The translations under genes were made by a program, and so were the position numbers. Of a DNA stretch of 64,000 bases, positions 13,738-24,124 are shown piece after piece. The DNA is from Saccharothrix deserti (GTDB taxonomy: Bacteria; Actinomycetota; Actinomycetes; Mycobacteriales; Pseudonocardiaceae), in contig NZ_VKAB01000001.1 in the NCBI RefSeq assembly GCF_009769385.1, positions 434,001 to 498,000 on the forward strand. The letters run 5' to 3'. Every line of letters starts with the position of its first letter. Position 1 is the first letter of the stretch. The notes beneath the pieces are model-generated. The model ran no database searches, was not told the DNA's origin, and saw only the letters and a program-made list of their open reading frames with translations.

Positions 13738-14928
13738 GTGTCGCGACTGCGTGGAGTGCTGATCGGGTCGGCCCTCGGCCTGCTGGCCGCGGGCTGCGCG
13801 AGCTTCCCCGAGCAGCCGGGACCGGCGGGGTGGAGCGCGGCCCAGCAGCTGACGCCGCAGGCCGGGCCGGTGCCCGAACTGCCGGGCGAGCTGCCGAAGG
13901 GCCCGGCCCAGGGCCAGCAGCCCGGCGGCCAGCCGCCGACGCCCGTGCCGCCGCCGCAGGGCTGCACCGACTTCAACCCGACCGTGATCGCGACGTGCCT
14001 GGACCCGGTGTCCGGGGTGGCGCTGACCGACGTCAACCAGACGACCGGCGCGGTGACGGCGCTGGCGACCGAGCGCGCCACCGGGCGGCTGCTCAAGGTG
14101 ACCAAGGACGTCCCCCCGGTCGAGGTGGCGAAGTTCGAGGTGGACGCGTCCGGGGACGGCGGGCTCAGCGGGCTCACGCTGTCGCCGACGTACCCCGAGG
14201 ACCAGCTGGTCTACGTGTACCTGACGACGGCGACCGACAACCGGGTGATGCGGATCGCGCCGGGTGACGTGCCGAAGCCGGTGCTGACCGGTATCCCGAA
14301 GGGCCCGAGCGGCAACCGGGGCGTGCTGGCCTACGACCGCACCGGTGCGTTGCTGGTGGCGACGGGTGACGCGGGCAACCCGGCGCTGGCCGCCGACCCG
14401 AACTCGCCGGCCGGGAAGGTGCTGCGGATCGACGGCGCCGGGCAGCCGGCGCGCGGCAACCCGACGGCGGGGTCGCGGGTGCTGGCGAGCGGGCTGAAGT
14501 CGCCGGGTGGGTTGTGCGTGTCGGGTGACGGCACGAAGACGTGGGTGACCGACGTCGGCGCGTCGGCCGACCTGCTGTACCGGGTCGAGGCGGGCAAGGC
14601 GCTGGGCGACCCGGCGTGGTCGTGGCCGGACCGGCCGGGGGTCGGCGGGTGCGCTTCGTTCACGGACATGGTGATGGTGGCGGCCGGCGGCAACACGCCC
14701 GGCCTGCTCAACCTGCCGATGAACCCGGACGGCAGCTTCACCGGCAAGCCCGAGGTGACCGGGAACGGCGAGGACGGCTTCGGCCGGCTGGGCCCGTTGG
14801 TGATGCTGGACGACACGGCGACGCTGGTCGGCACGGTGAACAAGAAGCCGGGCGGCACGCCGGTCTCCAGCGACGACCGCGTGGCGATCCTCGTGCGCCC
14901 CACGGGTGGGCCGGGCGGTAGGGACTGA
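13738..14928 (+). CDS. lipoprotein with glucose/sorbosone dehydrogenase-like beta-propeller (LppZ type)
   Basis: A 396-residue exported lipoprotein: signal peptide ending in the lipobox LAAGC (Cys at residue 21), a Pro/Gln-rich linker, then repeated beta-propeller blades of the PQQ-dependent sugar dehydrogenase-like fold (GGLSGLTLSPTYPEDQLVYV, later NRGVLAYDRTGALLVATGD). M. tuberculosis LppZ (Rv3006) has the same architecture and neighbourhood. Catalytic activity is not assured: such proteins often lack the PQQ pocket. GTG at 13738. Confidence 0.86.
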   Translation: MSRLRGVLIGSALGLLAAGCASFPEQPGPAGWSAAQQLTPQAGPVPELPGELPKGPAQGQQPGGQPPTPVPPPQGCTDFNPTVIATCLDPVSGVALTDVNQTTGAVTALATERATGRLLKVTKDVPPVEVAKFEVDASGDGGLSGLTLSPTYPEDQLVYVYLTTATDNRVMRIAPGDVPKPVLTGIPKGPSGNRGVLAYDRTGALLVATGDAGNPALAADPNSPAGKVLRIDGAGQPARGNPTAGSRVLASGLKSPGGLCVSGDGTKTWVTDVGASADLLYRVEAGKALGDPAWSWPDRPGVGGCASFTDMVMVAAGGNTPGLLNLPMNPDGSFTGKPEVTGNGEDGFGRLGPLVMLDDTATLVGTVNKKPGGTPVSSDDRVAILVRPTGGPGGRD

Positions 14929-14953
14929 CGGCTGACCGTCAGGCGGTCAGCCG
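14929..14953. terminator. bidirectional terminator between convergent genes
   Basis: CGGCTGACCG (14929-14938) pairs perfectly with 14944-14953 over a 5-nt loop; the right arm includes the last codons and stop of the minus-strand peptidase. Confidence 0.7.
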
Positions 14954-17433
14954 GCCGCCGACGGGGCCGCGGTGCGGTAGATGGCGTCCGCCACCTGCCA
15001 GTACAACCCCTTCGGGTGGTCGCGGAAGAGTGGTTCGGTGCCGAACAGCACCGCTCGGGCGCCGCGCGGTGACGTGCCCGCCACGACCGCCGCCTGGCCG
15101 GCCGCCTGCTCCTGGCCGCCCGACCCGTCGGCGCGGGCGATCCAGTGCCCCGCGACCAGGTCCTGGTAACGCTGCCGCGCGCTCACCCCCGGCCCGAGGT
15201 CGGTGAACCAGTGCGGCGCGTACACGAACGAGTGGCCGACCGCGCCCGATTCGTCCACCACCGACACGACACCGTTCGCGTCCTCCCGGCCCGCGACCGC
15301 CCGCACCGGCAGCACCCCGGCGTCGGCGTTGAACCGCGCGCCCGTCGCACCGCGCGTCACCACGCCACCGCGCGCCAGGAACCCGTCCACGGCCGCCTTG
15401 CCCGAGGCGTTCAGCTGGTCGTACCGCAACCCCGACGACACGAACAGCACGTCCACCCCGGACAGGTCGAGCCCGGCGTTCACCGTCGCCGTCGACACGG
15501 GCCGCACGTCGAAACCCATGTCCCGCAACGCCTTCAGCTCGTCCGCCGCCACCGCGCCGGCCACCACGGGACGCCGCAGCGGCACCCCGCCCGGCCCGGC
15601 CGCGGTGAACCTCACCCCGTACCGGTCCGACACCTCCTCCGCCGCCGACCGCGCCGACGCGGGCACCACGACCGTGCCGTCGTCCTGCCGCCGCAGCTCC
15701 AGCCCGCGTCCCAGCAGGTCGTTCACCGCCGCCGCGTCCTTGCTGTCGGCCAACGCCAGCGCGAGGTCGCCGCCCACGGCCGCCTGGACCGATCCGGTCG
15801 GCGAGGCCGCCTGCACGTCACGTCCGCGCACGTCCACCCGCCCGTCGCGCACGATGTCCACCGAAGCGCCCCACAGCAGCCGGTGGCTCCAGCCGCTGAT
15901 GTCGTACATGACCGGCACCTTGTCCGAGATGTCCCGCCCGGCCTCCAGCATCACGTTGGCCAGCGCGCGTTTCGGCTGGTGCATGTCGACCACGTACGAC
16001 CCGGCCGGGTACGCCCGACCGCCGAGCGAGAACCCGCGATCGGCTCGCGTCACCCGCACGTCGTGCGCGACCAGGTGGTCGACCAACCGTGCCGCGGCGG
16101 GTCCGGAACGCTGGCCGTCACCGACCGGGATGACGTACGCGCGCGGGAACTCCGTGGTGTAGCGGTCTTCGGGGCCGAAACCCGGCACGAGACCGTCCGG
16201 CAGGAACCGCTGCGCCTCGCCCGCCAGCCCCCGGCGGAACATCTCGATCTGGTTGTCCAGCATCGAAACCCGGTGCTCCTTCACGTACGTCAGCGCGCTG
16301 CGGATCGTCGCCTCGACGACGTCCGTGTTGATCGCCGAACGCCGCCGCAGTTCCGTCACCGGCTGTGTCGTGTAGTCACCCCGGTTCACTCGCATGGGAA
16401 TCTCGATCGTGTAGGACACCGCGCCGTGGTACATCGAGTACTGCGCGGTGTAGATCGGCGCCCAGCCGTCCCACACGCCCGGCTCGTAGTCGCGGAACGG
16501 GATCTCCGGCTTGGCCGCCTCCGGGTGGCCGAGGTCCTGCACGGCGTCCTCCATGTGCAGGCCGCCCGCGTAGCCGTGCTTGATGTAGAGGTCGAAGTCG
16601 TAGTTCTGGCCGTGCGGCGGGGTGGTCGGCTCGATCAGCGTGTTCGACACGTACCCGTGCTCGTCCAGCATCAGCAGCGGCTGGATGCGCTTGACCACGT
16701 CCCGCATCGCCCGCGACTCCGGCTGCGAGGACGTGACGAAATCGCGGTTCAGGTCGAACCCGGCCGCGTTGGCCCGCGTCCCGGCCACCCGCCCGTCCGG
16801 GTTCGCGGTGAGGTTCACGTACACCCGGTTGCGCCGCAGGAAGTCCACCGCGGAACGGTCGTTCGTCACGGCGAGGTCCTCGATCACCCGCAGCGCGCCG
16901 TCGGTGCCCTCCCACTCGTCGCCGTGGATGTTGGCGTTGATCCACACCGGCGCCTTGTAGCCGCTGCGCAGGAAGACGTCGCGGCGCGCGCCGACCGGGT
17001 CGTTCTCGATCCGGTCGCGCCACGCCTCCTGCCTGCGGGTCTCCGCCGGGCTCTCCGGTGCGGTGAGGGTCACCAGGTAGAGGTCGCGTCCCGATTGCGA
17101 CTGGCCGACGACCTCGACGGACACCCGGTTGCTGCGGCGCTGGAGGTCGTTGAGGCGCGGGGCGAGCGAGTGGTACGGCGCGAGACCGAGCTTGATCGAC
17201 TTGTCGGCCTGGTCCTCCGGGTAGACGCGGAGTTCGGTGCGGCGCGGGTAGCCGGGGTTGGCGTCCGGCCGGTTGTCGCCGCGCGCGGTGGCGTGCAGCG
17301 GTGGGTCGACGGCGGCGACCTGGTTGCGCTCCGGGCCGTTGCCCGGCTCCTCGGCCCGGCCGACCGCGGGCGCGGCGGTCGCGGGTGTGGTCATCGTGGC
17401 CAGCAGCAGCACCGTGAGCAACAACGAACGCAC
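14947..17433 (-). CDS. secreted M14-family zinc carboxypeptidase
   Basis: An 828-residue exported metallopeptidase. Signal peptide of about 20 residues (MRSLLLTVLLLATMTTPATA). The M14 domain spans about residues 75-400: zinc ligands in NANIHGDEWEGTDG (H-x-x-E), third zinc His in MLDEHGY, substrate Asn-Arg in FDLNRDF, and the catalytic Glu in YTIEIPM. The rest holds a long C-terminal region with a class I amidotransferase/DJ-1-like fold (VDVLFVSSGLRYDQL). GTG 17433 follows GGAGGGGG. It probably trims peptides outside the cell. Not part of the mycobacterial order, so this block is lineage-specific. Confidence 0.92.
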   Translation of the reverse strand: MRSLLLTVLLLATMTTPATAAPAVGRAEEPGNGPERNQVAAVDPPLHATARGDNRPDANPGYPRRTELRVYPEDQADKSIKLGLAPYHSLAPRLNDLQRRSNRVSVEVVGQSQSGRDLYLVTLTAPESPAETRRQEAWRDRIENDPVGARRDVFLRSGYKAPVWINANIHGDEWEGTDGALRVIEDLAVTNDRSAVDFLRRNRVYVNLTANPDGRVAGTRANAAGFDLNRDFVTSSQPESRAMRDVVKRIQPLLMLDEHGYVSNTLIEPTTPPHGQNYDFDLYIKHGYAGGLHMEDAVQDLGHPEAAKPEIPFRDYEPGVWDGWAPIYTAQYSMYHGAVSYTIEIPMRVNRGDYTTQPVTELRRRSAINTDVVEATIRSALTYVKEHRVSMLDNQIEMFRRGLAGEAQRFLPDGLVPGFGPEDRYTTEFPRAYVIPVGDGQRSGPAAARLVDHLVAHDVRVTRADRGFSLGGRAYPAGSYVVDMHQPKRALANVMLEAGRDISDKVPVMYDISGWSHRLLWGASVDIVRDGRVDVRGRDVQAASPTGSVQAAVGGDLALALADSKDAAAVNDLLGRGLELRRQDDGTVVVPASARSAAEEVSDRYGVRFTAAGPGGVPLRRPVVAGAVAADELKALRDMGFDVRPVSTATVNAGLDLSGVDVLFVSSGLRYDQLNASGKAAVDGFLARGGVVTRGATGARFNADAGVLPVRAVAGREDANGVVSVVDESGAVGHSFVYAPHWFTDLGPGVSARQRYQDLVAGHWIARADGSGGQEQAAGQAAVVAGTSPRGARAVLFGTEPLFRDHPKGLYWQVADAIYRTAAPSAAG

Positions 17434-17465
17434 CGGGCCCCCTCCGATCGATCGCCGAAGAACTC

Positions 17466-17489
17466 CTCCACCCTGAGTAGTGGGTGGAG
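17466..17489 (-). terminator. 8-bp hairpin after the CHAT gene
   Basis: CTCCACCC (17466-17473) pairs with GGGTGGAG (17482-17489), 40 nt past the CHAT stop and before the peptidase start. Weak without a U-tract. Confidence 0.35.
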
Positions 17490-17528
17490 TGATCTCCGGT
17501 CAACCGGTCGAAAGGCTGGTCAGCCGTG

Positions 17529-20174
17529 TTAACCCGAGCCCAGGCACACGAACGGGCGACGCAACGGGTCCACCGCCACCGCGTCGGCCAGCGCGACCGC
17601 CGGTGACGCGCCGCCGGCCAGGTTGCGGTGGAAGTCGGCCATCGCCGCCGCCGACGGCTCGTCACCCACCCGGCTGGACGCGGCGATCACCGTCCGCGCG
17701 CCGCCGGCCAGCAGGGCGCCGGCGAACCCGAGCGGCTCGTCGCCGGGACGCACGCGGTTCAGCGCCAGCTCGCACGCGGCCAGCACGACCTGGTGCGGCG
17801 GCCGGCGGACGCGGCCGACCTCGTGCGCGAACATCGCGCCGTCCACCAGCTCCAGCCGGGAGAACAGCGCGTTCTCCGGCTCGTGCTCGCCGTGCGCGGC
17901 GATGTGCGCCAGCTCCACGCCGTCCAACGCCTCCAGCACCGCGCCGACCTTGGCCTCGGTGACGCCGAGCAGCTTCGCGTCACCGTGGTAGCCCGCGAGC
18001 CGGTCGATCTCACCTTGCGCGGCCTGCAGACCGGGACCGCGCACCAGCAGCACCCCGCTGGCCGCGTCACGTTCCTCGCGGATCGCCGAAATCCACGCGG
18101 TGGCCGACGGGACGACCGTCGTCGGCCGGTTCGCGCACATCGGCAGCACGCCCCAGGGCACCACGTACAGCGCGCCCGTCGGCACGACGACCAGTTCCCG
18201 GTCACCGATCATCGGGGCCAGCGGCTGCAGCAGCAGTCGGTCCAGCTTCTCCGCCTCACGGCGCGCGGACGCCGAGATGACGTCCGCCAGCGGCTGCGGG
18301 AGGTGGTCGGGGGCGAGCGCGTTGAGGTCGGCGTGCAGGCGGCGGGCCCCCTCCGTGACGGCGGCGGCCGACCCGAGGCGCACCATGCGCACCCGAACGC
18401 CGGCCAGCACGACGGCGACCAGCTCGTCGCCGGACACCGCGAAGCTCACCATCGCCCGCCCGCCCAACCGGGCCAGCACGTCGTCCGACGTGACGACCGG
18501 GCGCGGTGTGCCCCACGGGCCGGCGCTCCACCCCATCCGGGTGGCGGCGCGCTGGCTGGCCTTGAGCCGCTCCTCCAGTTCCGCGGTCGGCAGGCCGTCG
18601 AGGCGGGCGCGCAGCAGGGCGCGGCTCAACCGGCGCACCTCGGTGATCCGCTCACCCACCTCGGAGTCCACAGTGGATTCCGCCGGGTCGTACCGGTACA
18701 GCTGGGCCCTGGTGCGCTCCAACCAGGCGAACAGGCGCTTGGCGTCGGCCGCCGAGTCACGGCCCTGCAGCACCAGCCGCACGGCGAGTTCACCCAGCTC
18801 ACGGCCGTGCACGGCGGTGCCGGAGACGAGTTCCAGCCCACCGAGCCGGTCGCGCATCCGGCCCAGCTCGGCCAGGCCCGCCTTCGCCTGCGCCAACGCC
18901 ACCCGCCGGTTGCCGCGGGCCAGCGCCAGTTCCGCCCGGCACAGCCGCAGCAGCATCCGGTGGTCGATCGGCGTGATCCGGCGGGACTTGGGCACGCTGC
19001 GCAGCAGCTCGGCGCCCCGGTCCGGGTCGCCGCGGCGGATCTCCAGCCGGGCCGCCAGCACCAGGGCGAACGCGGCCTGGTCGTGCAGCTTCAGCCCGGC
19101 CAGCTCGGCGGACAGCTCGATCGCCTTCGCCACCACCCTGGCCGCCGGCCGCCGTGACTCCAGCGCGCGCAGCGCGTCCACCCGCAGCGTGATCAGGCCG
19201 GCCACCGCCGCCCACGCCGGGCTGCCGCGCTGGACCAGCTTGCGCTGCGCGGCGTTCGCCATCCGCTTGGCCAGCACGAGGTCGCCGTCCTGCAACGCCG
19301 CCGCCGCGCGGAACAGCTCGGCCTCGGCGACGTCCTGCCCGATGCGCTGGCGGCGCAGTTCCGGCAGCACCTCGTCGAGCAGCCGGCCCGCCTCGTCGGC
19401 CAGGCCGACGCTGATCATCGCCTCGGCCTGGTCGATGCGCAGGCGCAGCAGCAGGCCGGGTTCGAGTTCCTGGAACGCCCGGTTGGCCTCGTGGTAGTGG
19501 CGCAGGGCGCTCGGGATGTCGCCGGCGCGCTGCACCGCGTTGCCGAGGGCGTGCTTCGCGATCGCGGCGCGCAACGGCAGGTCGTGCGCGTCGGCGAGTT
19601 CGACGGCGCGGTTCAGGTCGCGGACGGCCTTGTCGTAGCGGTGGACCTCGCCGTGCGCGTTGCCCCGGTTGGACAGCGCGACCGCGAGCAGGTCGACGGC
19701 TTCGGGGTCGGTGTGCGCGTCGAGGCGTCGTTCGCTGCGGTCGATCTCCCGGTCGAGCTGGGCGATGCCCTCGTCGATGCGGCCGACCCGGCAGAGCAGG
19801 GCGGCGCGTTGGAGGTTGACCCTGGTGGACAGGTGCGCTTTCAACGCCTCGTCGCGCAGGCCCGCGAGTTCCTGGTCGACGCCGGCGAGCTGGGTGAGGC
19901 CGTCGTCCACCTTGCCCGTCTCGGCGAGGCAGAAGGCCAGGGTGTTGAGCAGCCGGACGCGGACTTCGAGCCGTTCCTGGGGGTCGATCCCGGGGTTCTC
20001 CAGCAGCGCCAGGCCCCTGCGCATCTGCCGGATGGCGGACGGGTGGCGGTCGGCGGTGGCCGCGTCCAACGCGCTCCGGTGCAACTGCCGGGCCAGTGCG
20101 ACCGGGCGCACCGGTCTGGAGGAGCCGCGCGTCCCGCGTGGTCTGCGAGCGGATGTTTGCGCAGGCACGTTCAT
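17529..20174 (-). CDS. TPR-CHAT caspase-like protease
   Basis: An 881-residue protein. Residues about 25-480 are tandem helical repeats of TPR type (LSNRGNAHGEVHRYDKAVRD, LGNAVQRAGDIPSALRHYHE). The last 300 residues form a CHAT peptidase: ELVVVPTGALYVVPWGVLP, the catalytic His in LAHIAAHGEHEP and the catalytic Cys in VVLAACELALN, then FAGALLAGGARTVIAA. Both dyad residues are present, so it should be active. CHAT proteases act on dedicated partner proteins in defence and cell-death systems. ATG 20174 has no Shine-Dalgarno; a hairpin and a repeat-peptide gene lie just upstream on the same strand. Cytoplasmic. Confidence 0.92.
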   Translation of the reverse strand: MNVPAQTSARRPRGTRGSSRPVRPVALARQLHRSALDAATADRHPSAIRQMRRGLALLENPGIDPQERLEVRVRLLNTLAFCLAETGKVDDGLTQLAGVDQELAGLRDEALKAHLSTRVNLQRAALLCRVGRIDEGIAQLDREIDRSERRLDAHTDPEAVDLLAVALSNRGNAHGEVHRYDKAVRDLNRAVELADAHDLPLRAAIAKHALGNAVQRAGDIPSALRHYHEANRAFQELEPGLLLRLRIDQAEAMISVGLADEAGRLLDEVLPELRRQRIGQDVAEAELFRAAAALQDGDLVLAKRMANAAQRKLVQRGSPAWAAVAGLITLRVDALRALESRRPAARVVAKAIELSAELAGLKLHDQAAFALVLAARLEIRRGDPDRGAELLRSVPKSRRITPIDHRMLLRLCRAELALARGNRRVALAQAKAGLAELGRMRDRLGGLELVSGTAVHGRELGELAVRLVLQGRDSAADAKRLFAWLERTRAQLYRYDPAESTVDSEVGERITEVRRLSRALLRARLDGLPTAELEERLKASQRAATRMGWSAGPWGTPRPVVTSDDVLARLGGRAMVSFAVSGDELVAVVLAGVRVRMVRLGSAAAVTEGARRLHADLNALAPDHLPQPLADVISASARREAEKLDRLLLQPLAPMIGDRELVVVPTGALYVVPWGVLPMCANRPTTVVPSATAWISAIREERDAASGVLLVRGPGLQAAQGEIDRLAGYHGDAKLLGVTEAKVGAVLEALDGVELAHIAAHGEHEPENALFSRLELVDGAMFAHEVGRVRRPPHQVVLAACELALNRVRPGDEPLGFAGALLAGGARTVIAASSRVGDEPSAAAMADFHRNLAGGASPAVALADAVAVDPLRRPFVCLGSG

Positions 20175-20194
20175 ATGAGATCACAGTCGGCATG

Positions 20195-20228
20195 CGAATG
20201 CCGCCGGCCTTTGAGCCGGCGGCATTCG
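20195..20228 (-). terminator. strong 14-bp hairpin between repeat peptide and CHAT gene
   Basis: CGAATGCCGCCGGC (20195-20208) pairs perfectly with 20215-20228, loop of 6 nt. It lies 30 nt after the repeat-peptide stop and 21 nt before the CHAT start, so it would terminate or reduce readthrough into the protease gene, or stabilise the upstream message. Confidence 0.75.
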
Positions 20229-20258
20229 TGCGCCGTCACCGTTGTGTCACTGACGGTA

Positions 20259-20537
20259 TTACTTCGTCTGGGTGGATGCCGCCGGGTCGTCGGTCGGCTT
20301 GTAGGGGCCGCCCGTCGGCTTCACCAGCGGGTCGTCGGTCGGCTTGTACGGGCCGCCCATCGGCTTGACCAGCGGGTCGTCGGTCGGCTTGTAGGGGCCG
20401 CCCGTGGGCCCGACACCCCCGCCGTCGCCCGGCTCGGCTTCGGTTTCGGTTCCGGTTTCGGTTCCGGTCCCCGCGTCGATGACCTCGTCCTCGGTGGCGT
20501 CGATCTCGGCGACGAGCTTCGGGTCACTTCGAGTCAT
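20259..20537 (-). CDS. 92-residue acidic repeat peptide upstream of the CHAT protease
   Basis: I do not recognise the family. The N-terminal 45 residues are acidic and rich in Thr, Glu and Gly (TGTETGTETEAEPGDGGG). Then come three copies of GGPYKPTDDP separated by LVKP, a 15-residue period that is also a 45-nt DNA repeat (from 20284, 20329 and 20374). The repeats are nearly identical at protein and DNA level. GGAGGG lies 9 nt before the ATG at 20537, a good start. No signal peptide or membrane segment. Its place directly before a TPR-CHAT protease suggests substrate or regulator; a multi-core precursor peptide is another option, but no modification enzyme is near. Confidence 0.75.
   Translation of the reverse strand: MTRSDPKLVAEIDATEDEVIDAGTGTETGTETEAEPGDGGGVGPTGGPYKPTDDPLVKPMGGPYKPTDDPLVKPTGGPYKPTDDPAASTQTK
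20284..20409 (-). repeat. 45-nt tandem repeat inside the peptide gene
   Basis: Units begin at 20284, 20329 and 20374; the third is incomplete. Differences are single bases, so the array expanded recently. It is in frame (15 codons). Confidence 0.85.
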
Positions 20538-20856
20538 GACGTTGTCCCTCCCCTACAACGGCCCCTGTTCGGGGTTTCATCCGCGTCTGTTTGATCATTC
20601 GACCGGCCCCCCGACCTCTGCCGAATGGGCTCAAGCGTGACACAGATGGACGCAGCCATGAGAGAAAAACTTACTAAGAGCAACCAGAAACCCGATCTTG
20701 AGCCTCGCTGACCAGCACCGAAGCAGCAGTTCGAGAAGTGTTACCACTCGAATGGGCGAATGTGTTAACAGAGTGCAGGCACTCCGAGGGCCGCAATTAG
20801 GCGACTCCAGCCGGACCGCCCAACCCGGAATCCGCCCCTCCGGCCCCGGAAAACAG
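20538..20856. other. intergenic region upstream of the repeat peptide
   Basis: About 320 nt with lower GC around 20640-20710. It must hold the promoter of the minus-strand peptide gene. On plus, GTGTTA occurs twice 24 bp apart (near 20738 and 20762), which could be a binding site. An 85-codon minus frame here (20631-20888) looks non-coding. Confidence 0.4.
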
Positions 20857-20895
20857 CGGCGGGGTGGGGCTCGCGTCGCAAGCCCCACCCCGCCG
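20857..20895 (-). terminator. gatB operon terminator
   Basis: CGGCGGGGTGGGGCT (20857-20871) pairs perfectly with 20881-20895 over a 9-nt loop, 21 nt past the gatB stop. Confidence 0.8.
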
Positions 20896-20916
20896 TCGAA
20901 CCCGCCTGCACCCGCC

Positions 20917-22419
20917 CTACGAACAGCGGGCGATGATCAGTTCACGCACGCGCTTCGCGTCCGCCTGACCCTTCGTCGCCTTCATCACCGCGCCGACGAT
21001 CGCACCGGCCGCCGCGACCTTGCCGTCGCGGATCTTCGCCGCCACGTCGGGCTGCGCGGCCAGCGCCTCGTCCACCGCCTTCTCCAGCGCCGAGTCGTCC
21101 GAGACGACCTTCAGCCCCCGCGCCTCGATGACGGCCTCGGGCTCGCCCTCACCGTCGAGCACACCGGTGACGACCTCGCGGGCGAGCTTGTTCGTCAGCT
21201 CACCGGAGTTCACCAGCCCGATCACCCTGGCGATCTGCACCGGCGTGATGGCCAGCTCCGACAGCTCGACGCCGCGGTTGTTGGCCTCCTTGGTCAGGTA
21301 GGCCACCCACCACGACCGGGCCTCGGCGGGCGTCACGCCCGCGTCCACCGTCGCCGCCACCAGGTCCACCGCACCGGCGTTGACCAGGTCGCGCAGCTCG
21401 GCGTCGGTCAGCGACCACTCCTGCTGCACCCGCTTGCGCCGCTCCCACGGCAGCTCGGGCAGCGTCCCGCGCAGTTCCTCCACCCATTCGCGGGACGGTG
21501 CGATCGGCACCAGGTCGGGCTCCGGGAAGTACCGGTAGTCCTCCGCCGTCTCCTTCGTGCGCCCTGGGGAAGTGCTCCCCGTGGACTCGTCGAAGTGCCG
21601 CGTCTCCTGGGTGACCTTGCCGCCGGCCACCAGCACCGCCGCCTGGCGGGTCATCTCGAACCGCACCGCCCGCTCGACGCTGCGCAGCGAGTTGACGTTC
21701 TTCGTCTCGGTGCGCGTGCCGAACTCGGTCGCGTCCTTGGCCATCAGCGACACGTTCGCGTCGCACCGCAGCGAACCCTGGTCCATCCGGACGTCCGACA
21801 CGTCGAGCGCCTTCAACAGGTCGCGCAACGCCGTGACGTAGGCGCGCGCCACCTCGGGCGCCCGCTCGCCGGTGCCCGAGATCGTTTTCGTCACGATCTC
21901 GATCAGCGGCACGCCGGCGCGGTTGTAGTCGAGCAGCGAGTGCTCGGCGCCGTGGATACGGCCGGTCGCGCCGCCGACGTGCAGCGACTTGCCGGTGTCC
22001 TCCTCCATGTGCGCGCGCTCGATCTCGACCCGGAACAGCGAGCCGTCGTCCAGCGTCACGTCCAGGTAGCCGTTGTACGCGATCGGCTCGTCGTACTGCG
22101 AGGTCTGGAAGTTCTTCGGCATGTCCGGGTAGAAGTAGTTCTTCCGGGCGAACCGGCACCACTCCGCGATCTCGCAGTTGAGCGCCAACCCGATCCGGAT
22201 CGCCGACTCCACCGCCTTTCCGTTGAGCGCGGGCAGCGCGCCGGGCAGGCCGAGGCAGGTCGGGCAGACCTGCGTGTTCGGCTCGCCGCCGAAGACGTTC
22301 GCGCAACCGCAGAACATCTTGGTGTTGGTGTGCAGCTCGACGTGCACCTCCAACCCCAGCACCGGGTCGAAGCGCTCGATGACCTCGGCGTAGTCCATCA
22401 GCTCGTGCACCGACGTCAT
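20917..22419 (-). CDS. gatB: Asp-tRNA(Asn)/Glu-tRNA(Gln) amidotransferase subunit B
   Basis: The kinase/tRNA-binding subunit of GatCAB, which converts mischarged Glu-tRNA(Gln) and Asp-tRNA(Asn) to the correct amides. The 500-residue protein has the GatB signature [19 protein letters not shown], zinc-type cysteines ([13 protein letters not shown]), [18 protein letters not shown], and the C-terminal tRNA-binding helical/YqeY domain. ATG 22419 overlaps the stop of the small upstream gene (ATGA). Last gene of the gat operon, with a terminator after it. Confidence 0.97.
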
Positions 22420-22607
22420 GCCTTCCCGTCCTTCCGCAGACCCCGCACGGCCAGCGCCGCACCGGTGATCGCCACCAGGATGCTCGCCGCCGCGTTGACA
22501 AGCGCCAGCTTGTCGTTCTTGCCGCGAGCCGATTTCAACGTGGAGAACGCGCTGGTGGCCGCACCGGCGGCGCCGACCAGCGCGAGGACCGTCCGTGCCT
22601 TCTTCAC
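22416..22607 (-). CDS. small membrane protein inserted in the gat operon
   Basis: A 63-residue protein with two hydrophobic segments ([14 protein letters not shown] and [19 protein letters not shown]) and a basic middle (KSARGKNDK). Starts with GTG overlapping the gatA stop (GTGA), ends with TGA overlapping the gatB start (ATGA), so it is translated within the operon. In M. tuberculosis pfkA lies at this position. No known function; a link with GatCAB is only positional. The perfect overlaps and coding-type composition make it real. Confidence 0.75.
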
Positions 22608-24124
22608 CGGGCCGCACCCGCCAACTGTGGCACGCCCTGGATCACCGGCGCGCCCAGGGCCGCGTCGCGCGCGACCTCGTACGCCGCCGCCACCCGGTAC
22701 ATCCGGTGGTCCTGCAACGCCGGTGCCATGATCTGCAGACCGACCGGCAGACCGTCCTCATCGGACAGTCCACTCGGGACGCTCATGGCGGCGTTGCCGG
22801 CCAGGTTCGCCGGGATCGTGCACAGGTCCGCCTTGTACATGGCCATCGGGTCGCCGGCGCGCTCACCGATCGGGAACGCGGTGGTCGGCGTGGTCGGCGA
22901 GACCAGCACGTCCACGGTGGCGAACGCGGCCTCGAAATCGCGGGAGATGAGCGTCCGCACCTTCTGCGCCGAGCCGTAGTACGCGTCGTAGTAACCCGAC
23001 GACAGCGCGTACGTGCCGATCATGATGCGCCGCTTCACCTCGGGGCCGAAACCGGCCTCGCGGGTCAGCGACATGACCTCCTCGGCGCTGCGGGTGCTGT
23101 CGTCGCCGACCCGGATGCCGTAGCGCATCGCGTCGAAGCGGGCCAGGTTGGACGAGGCCTCGCTGGGCGCGATCAGGTAGTACGCGGGCAGCGCGTAGTC
23201 GAAGCTCGGGCACGAGACCTCGACGATCTCCGCGCCCAGCTGCTTGAGCTGCGCCACGGCCGCCTCGAACGAGCGCAGCACGCCCGGCTGGTAGCCGTCA
23301 CCGCTGAACTGCGTCACCACGCCGACGCGCACGCCGGTCAGGTCGCCGTTCGCGCCCTCGCGGGCCGCCGCCACCACGGGCGGCACGGGCGCGTTGATCG
23401 AGGTGGAGTCCATCGGGTCGTAGCCCGCGATGACCTCGTGCAGCAGGGCCGCGTCCAGCACGGTCCGGGCGCACGGCCCGGCCTGGTCCAGCGACGACGA
23501 GAACGCCACCAGGCCGTACCGGGAGACACCGCCGTAGGTCGGCTTCACGCCGACCGTGCCGGTGACCGCGCCGGGCTGGCGGATCGAGCCGCCGGTGTCC
23601 GTGCCGATCGACAGCGGCGCCTCGAACGCGGCCAGCGCCGCCGCCGAGCCACCGCCCGAACCGCCGGGGATGCGGTCAAGGTCCCACGGGTTGTGGGTCG
23701 GGCCGTAGGCGGAGTTCTCGGTGGAGGAGCCCATCGCGAACTCGTCCATGTTGGTCTTGCCGAGGATCACCACGCCGGCTTCCTTGAGCCTGCGGGTGAC
23801 CGTGGCGTCGTAGGGCGGCACCCAGCCTTCGAGGATCTTCGAACCGACCGTGGTCGGCACGCCCTCGGTGGTGAGCACGTCCTTGAGCGCGACCGGCACG
23901 CCGGCCAGCGGACCGACGTGGGCGCCGGCGGCGATGTCCTCGTCGACCTTGCGGGCCGCCTTGAGGGCGCCCTCGGTGTCGACGTGCAGGAACGCGTTGA
24001 CCGCGCCGTCGACCTCGCCGATCCGGTCGAGGTGGGCCTGGGCGACCTCCACCGCGGAGACCTCGCGGCTCGCGATCCTGGCGGCGAGCTCGGCGGCGGT
24101 GCTGCGAATCAGGTCGCTGGTCAT
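22604..24124 (-). CDS. gatA: Asp-tRNA(Asn)/Glu-tRNA(Gln) amidotransferase subunit A
   Basis: The glutaminase/amidase subunit of GatCAB. The 506-residue amidase-signature protein has the catalytic Lys in PVALKDVL, the [13 protein letters not shown] Ser-rich loop, and the nucleophile region [13 protein letters not shown] (Ser-cis-Ser-Lys triad). The start ATG overlaps the gatC stop (ATGA). The channelled ammonia is passed to GatB. Confidence 0.97.

Follow-up and report, generated by a model that had tools for sequence, protein, structure and literature searches.

Why does a short peptide gene carrying three copies of one motif stand directly ahead of the gene for a caspase- or separase-like protease, and what might the two products have to do with each other? 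We consider this question for a locus in a 64,000-nucleotide stretch of Saccharothrix deserti DNA (contig NZ_VKAB01000001.1, positions 434,001 to 498,000; 'the window' below). Here a 92-residue acidic repeat peptide is encoded at 20259..20537 and an 881-residue TPR-CHAT protease at 17529..20174, with 84 nt between the peptide stop and the protease start; both genes, like every feature located below, are on the minus strand. Judging from sequence comparison, we put at about one in two the probability that the two make up a dedicated protease-partner module, whose older target would have been a subtilase and whose partner here would be a stand-alone peptide carrying the motif that the TPR-CHAT protease recognizes.

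The peptide is laid out as a leader, an acidic linker, three copies of GGPYKPTDDP (residues 46-55, 61-70 and 76-85, encoded at 20373..20402, 20328..20357 and 20283..20312) and a short tail. Its 15-residue period appears in the DNA as an array of 2.8 x 45 bp with 92% matches, and the open reading frame (ORF) bears out the preliminary description of this DNA as to the acidic 92-residue product, the three copies and their spacing. A Shine-Dalgarno-like GGGAGGG, called as GGAGG, lies ahead of the start (20546..20552). Because of this signal, a G+C content at third codon positions (GC3) of 0.89, motif-bearing orthologues in all 25 genomes of the genus and mainly synonymous differences between its copies, it looks like a genuine gene and not a chance ORF. 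The motif is uniform inside each peptide and different between lineages. Repeat copies were compared in 37 of the 40 loci with GGPY or other repeats, 34 of which have at least two copies, giving a pooled synonymous divergence (pS) of 0.37 and nonsynonymous divergence (pN) of 0.12; copies were picked by a first-residue pattern, which biases pN low and leaves degenerate copies uncounted. By this pS the copies are, even so, not all of recent origin.

The protease has TPR repeats (TPR_1 in Pfam, E 3e-7) followed by a CHAT domain (E 2.9e-28, residues 639-865, 17580..18260) with a His/Cys dyad, the composition that defines TPR-CHAT proteins. In its AlphaFold2 model (predicted local distance difference test, pLDDT, 82.8), DSSP and fold matches place a TPR superhelix at about residues 24-490 (18705..20105); the TPR half matches Rap receptors and the catalytic half separase. 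The residues read as catalytic, His761 (codon 17892..17894) and Cys801 (17772..17774), are His and Cys in 115 of 115 aligned relatives, the alignment and tree covering 115 of 133 loci after 18 were dropped for late matches or a stop. That the peptide sits directly upstream of a same-strand TPR-CHAT gene with an intact dyad, as had been claimed before, thus holds. Loci were collected by protease match (L001-L030, L061-L143 and 20 more distant ones, L144-L163) or by peptide query (L031-L060).

If the two genes belong together, they should be found together. Close orthologues of the protease (68-100%), sought in 149 related genomes, are present in 25 of 25 genomes of the genus group, which is mostly Saccharothrix with an Actinosynnema and includes the window's own genome, and when the DNA was read, a short peptide built of GGPY or GGPF units, in one case of DGPY units, stood upstream of the protease in every one. 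Related groups include Umezawaea, Lentzea, Kibdelosporangium plus Actinocrispum, Actinokineospora and Amycolatopsis, and protease matches at E<=1e-100 occur in 157 of 297 family genomes. A profile built from 19 peptides and run against the same 297 genomes gave matches at E<1e-4 in 26 genomes, every one at the protease locus and none away from it; its reach is limited, three GGPY-type neighbours of the protease having been missed (G018; G045 and G082 are not among the matches listed). Six weaker profile matches (E 3e-4 to 0.0084) in other frames, of which one comes from a genome with a true locus as well, look like chance, as which weak matches to the peptide query, such as G131 (E 5.3e-4) and G023 C6 (E 0.0022), were also taken. 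Peptide homologues in the family are therefore not mostly found away from CHAT genes, and the two-gene module of the preliminary description is supported as one inherited module.

The tree extends this picture beyond the genus. Among the 115 proteases, the 80 loci that have a short peptide gene upstream but no gene for the 'REG' protein considered below form one clade with support 100, and adding the dropped locus L003 makes 81 clade loci, all with a short upstream peptide. Assigned by hand from upstream ORFs, the peptides fall into GGPY (29), other repeats such as GPVHHQ, GPRNT and GPVQQDG (11), Cys-Cys (21, found in Lentzea) and His-rich (20, ending in a C-x-G-x-x-C-like stretch) classes. 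By hand count, the residue after P is Y, F or V in 35 of 38 GP-bearing stand-alone peptides. It is our guess that the 20 His-rich/Cys peptides may serve metal or redox sensing. The window genome holds two types, GGPY (L001) and His-rich (L065); at the latter (G000 C25), a second TPR-CHAT gene follows an ORF for an acidic, His-rich peptide of 72 residues that has PMCIGGGC towards its end. At the Lentzea-type loci L030, L066, L105, L106, L110, L112, L114-L117, L119-L128 and L138, a PMCCGGG/PQCCG-like motif replaces the GGPY repeats. A check on 80 named loci found 49 to be copies of loci already read and 31 new, the latter comprising six with sigma factor and REG, four with a subtilase and 21 with a short peptide led by a Shine-Dalgarno sequence; one of these 21, which lie outside the tree, is of GGPY type (L176) and the rest are Cys types.

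Might the peptide nevertheless be a disordered bystander that travels with the protease? Its sequence is variable, and the window peptide has no match above cutoff in Pfam, NCBIfam or PADLOC. Seven other peptides gave NCBIfam matches far below cutoff and no gasdermin match in Pfam; a Pfam SLH match to one of them, from Kibdelosporangium (22.6 bits, cutoff 20.8), was taken as spurious. Against a bystander stand the strict co-inheritance through one clade and the conservation of the copies in the face of synonymous change, and we give this explanation hardly any credence.

A clue to what the peptide might do comes from more distant TPR-CHATs. These adjoin a subtilase (S8) that looks cytoplasmic, in most cases accompanied by a sigma factor and the ~160-aa REG protein. 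All 27 REG loci have a sigma factor upstream, as against none of 61 GGPY, other-GP and Cys-Cys loci and one of 20 His-rich loci, upstream DNA of 1.5 to 2 kb having been examined for most; REG loci are labelled by the presence of REG, and their sigma factor is the one independent count among these. The same kind of ORF filter applied to REG loci turned up pieces of the REG, sigma or S8 reading frames, and an independent peptide in none but L094 and L096. Used as a query, one such subtilase gave matches at E<=1e-20 in 15 of the 197 genomes of the class and at E<=1e-30 in 23 of the 149 relatives. Of the resulting 41 S8 loci, 38 have a sigma factor (34), REG (31) or TPR-CHAT within 1.5 kb, and the other three are second S8 matches in genomes already among the 38. 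Three genomes from one family of the order have two nearby S8 matches each (L310/L315, L311/L316, L313/L317), possibly tandem subtilase copies. Outside the family, sigma factor, REG, repeat-bearing subtilase and TPR-CHAT occur in one locus at L277, L279, L280, L281, L299, L303, L305 and L314. The S8 relative of L243 matches the PADLOC model 'subtilase' at 39 bits. At the window locus subtilase, sigma factor and REG are not present, and 19 of the 25 genus genomes, the window's included, were without a match to the S8 query at E<=1e-30.

Between the N-terminal part of many of these subtilases and their catalytic domain (in L243 the Pfam S8 match begins at residue 231) sit tandem units of a similar kind, PFGSGV, PFGHGQ, PVSHGQ, NPYHSG, NPFTRT, PFMKGG and others, in 2-7 copies. 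Exact tandems, identical words by definition, occur in 26 of the 35 S8 rows whose N-terminus is complete, or 25 of 33 once two duplicates are removed, four rows without a readable D motif having been left out; in 11 of 42 rows a short word is repeated in tandem at some other place in the protein. By hand count, an aromatic or aliphatic residue follows P in 21 of 24 rows with P-bearing units; the motifs of linkers and peptides are similar in kind, [small]-P-[aromatic/aliphatic]-x-x-x in the former and [small]-P-[Y/F/V]-x-x-x in the latter. In one case the words are nearly identical: the subtilase of L087 reads PVSHGQ, the peptide of L029 GPVSHQ. Linker copies are identical in amino acids yet have a pS of 0.53, so that they are old and have been kept. 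At the linker position, GTPWDTN occurs just once in some Saccharothrix subtilases, and the linker of a subtilase upstream of a TPR-CHAT relative (L269) has GGPKYKGGPATE, another GGP pair.

We start, then, from observations: the co-inheritance of peptide and protease, the conservation of the motif, the anatomy of the loci and the presence of similar motifs in both kinds of partner. Since peptide and protease form one inherited module and similar motifs recur in another TPR-CHAT partner, a direct relation between the two is likely. On the simplest reading, TPR-CHAT recognizes the motif, by binding or by cleavage, because TPR-CHAT is the element common to loci where the motif sits in the linker of a subtilase and to those where a free peptide carries it, and because peptides keep the motif in genomes where the S8 query came back empty. 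What we infer from this is a scenario of motif recognition and cleavage, with a disordered peptide in excess, a releasing signal and a downstream effect. In its older form, the separase/caspase-like TPR-CHAT enzyme most likely docks on and cuts the subtilase linker and so turns the subtilase on, as an initiator would an executioner, this cascade standing beside the sigma factor and REG protein; activation by cleavage would suit the subtilase, as the motif sits just before its catalytic domain. In the window lineage the short peptide alone would carry the motif, as a probably disordered carrier of several copies, and most likely it is the protease's own substrate or a tethered pseudo-substrate.

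The linkers also bear on two other explanations. The motif might be the subtilase's own maturation site, in peptide loci a relic or read by another protease, and its location between the N-terminal and catalytic domains would suit this; peptides of the genus, however, keep their motif copies where the S8 query was empty (19 of 25 genomes), which makes the idea very improbable. Alternatively, the peptide might be a multi-core precursor, akin to a ribosomally synthesized and post-translationally modified peptide or a pheromone, from which the CHAT protease excises cores as signal or metabolite. The leader followed by repeats, the Gly-Gly opening each unit, units uniform within and different between lineages, and a TPR half resembling Rap receptors would fit such a role. 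However, no modifying enzyme or exporter was recognized beside the pair, among neighbours that were not systematically annotated, and a similar unit inside a subtilase linker could hardly be a product there; we therefore regard a precursor as improbable.

Several findings weigh against the module as we read it. Exact tandems are missing from 8 of 33 distinct full-length subtilases and from all seven short ones, the likeness of subtilase and peptide motifs was judged by eye on a short motif, and an AlphaFold2 model of the subtilase from five sequences reached a pLDDT of 44. P-aromatic repeats are lacking in the Cys-Cys (21 loci) and His-rich/Cys (20 loci) classes as well as in the Cys-type peptides among the 21 newly read named loci. 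The 27 sigma-REG-CHAT loci of the tree have no adjoining motif-bearing partner in the flanks examined, and a search of the gap between reg and CHAT genes gave a repeat peptide in L094 and L096 only, which are exceptional in combining sigma factor, REG and repeat peptide. As sister group of the peptide clade one tree favours the S8 clade (Shimodaira-Hasegawa-like approximate likelihood ratio test, SH-aLRT, 91), and a careful 44-row tree gives this placement a bootstrap of 55 and an SH-aLRT of 93; the sister relation is not firm, and because of the bootstrap of 55, despite the SH-aLRT of 91, the tree leaves undecided whether the free peptide derives from the subtilase form. Lastly, ten protease columns track motif type, all in the TPR part, and 12 control groupings gave 0 to 7; since the TPR part evolves fastest, these columns speak neither for nor against the reading.

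The gap between the two genes offers a hint on their relative amounts. From peptide stop to protease start it contains a hairpin with a 15-bp stem (20195..20228; z -5.5 for the gap alone). Across the clade, z falls below -2 in 68 of 78 gaps and the stem has at least nine pairs in 64; two of the 80 gaps were too short to measure, z has a shuffle control and stem length has none, and the protease's first codons fall within some of the longer gaps, the start having been picked by a Shine-Dalgarno rule. In 17 Saccharothrix loci, two of them without an aligned 3' arm, 9 of 13 stem pairs have two-sided changes, a count without shuffle control. At 20172-20185, TGTGATCTCATATG stands ahead of the window's protease start and no Shine-Dalgarno sequence is clear; the same or a near word is found in the aligned Saccharothrix loci. 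A natural guess is that the hairpin is a processing or attenuation site giving more peptide than protease.

Such an excess would also suit a peptide acting as stoichiometric inhibitor, antitoxin-like or securin-like, whose uncut repeats occupy either the active site or the groove of the TPR part until its loss frees a toxic protease. Several identical copies would fit avidity, and the match of the catalytic half is to separase, an enzyme that securin keeps in check. For the subtilase, however, a motif just before the catalytic domain makes more sense if it is cut, and two peptides (L025, L026) have a single motif copy, so that pure inhibition seems unlikely to us, if less so than the explanations dismissed above. 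In the module that we propose, the hairpin would keep the peptide in excess and the protease occupied until a signal frees it. Extending this proposal, we suggest tentatively a widespread and so far unrecognized actinobacterial family of protease switches, in which a TPR-CHAT initiator would read a lineage- and paralogue-specific P-aromatic tandem code; the older form would gate a subtilase executioner beside a sigma factor, and in the window lineage the motif would have become detached into a free multi-copy peptide acting as bait or brake.

The genes around the pair speak to its age. ORFs of window 14000-24000 include gatB-like, gatA-like, M14 peptidase and GSDH-type dehydrogenase genes (the last two by Pfam), gatB being named in the window by reading of its ORF. 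gatB lies upstream in 28 of 29 GGPY-type and 20 of 21 Lentzea-type loci. The preliminary description took the block for an insertion; a recent stray insertion is rejected, as the gatB position is common to several genera and so old and shared, and because it is common to GGPY-type and Lentzea-type loci, whose peptide class differs, arrival there appears to predate several genera. A terminator-like hairpin after gatB (20857..20895; one found against 1.0 expected from shuffles, hence weak alone) suggests that peptide and protease lie outside the gat transcript. Downstream of the protease, a gene for an M14 zinc carboxypeptidase (14947-17433, by Pfam) was considered as a third member of the module and set aside as a neighbour: within the flank examined it is present in 21 of 21 Lentzea-type loci and 16 of 29 GGPY-type loci, and by reading its product begins with a secretion-signal-like stretch.

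To our knowledge, few caspase-like proteases of bacteria have a known dedicated substrate, and among the papers listed in searches of the open-access literature we recognized none describing this pair or an S8-TPR-CHAT operon. The sequences supply a candidate for the recognition motif, together with numerous natural variants and two architectures of the partner. How substrates are recognized, whether there is a bacterial protease cascade and how specificity evolves thus become directly testable, and if the motif is cut, the family would provide a set of protease-tag pairs.

How does this locus compare with known systems? PADLOC defence models gave no match to the window peptide or protease at E up to 1. 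The fold likeness to separase concerns the catalytic half; the system here is bacterial, and its partner was not compared with securin. Rap-Phr receptors share the TPR fold, which here is fused to a protease, and unlike in those systems the window peptide has, by reading, no obvious secretion signal. Bacterial gasdermins have CHAT-type proteases encoded nearby, and as in those pairs protease and dedicated target would stand side by side, whereas the window peptide, disordered and repetitive by its looks, matches no Pfam family above cutoff. In the cascade of type III-B CRISPR that runs from SAVED-CHAT through PCaspase to sigma/anti-sigma factors, a CHAT protease activates another protease, with a sigma factor alongside, and we propose the like for TPR-CHAT and the subtilase; the window protease has no SAVED match in Pfam, and the second protease here is a subtilase with tandem linker motifs that is absent from the window locus. 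Craspase (type III-E CRISPR, Csx29-Csx30-CASP-sigma) differs in that the partner here is a 92-aa repeat peptide or a subtilase. Against the curated Csx29 model the window protease scores 20.3 bits (cutoff 300), and no large CRISPR effector was recognized by eye among the ORFs of window 14000-24000, where Cas7-11 and Csx30 were not searched for. In the Csx29 system, a TPR-CHAT protease cuts Csx30, an inhibitor of a sigma factor resembling those of extracytoplasmic function (ECF) type (PMC10028731), and it is this system that the sigma-REG-CHAT operons of the present family parallel in layout.

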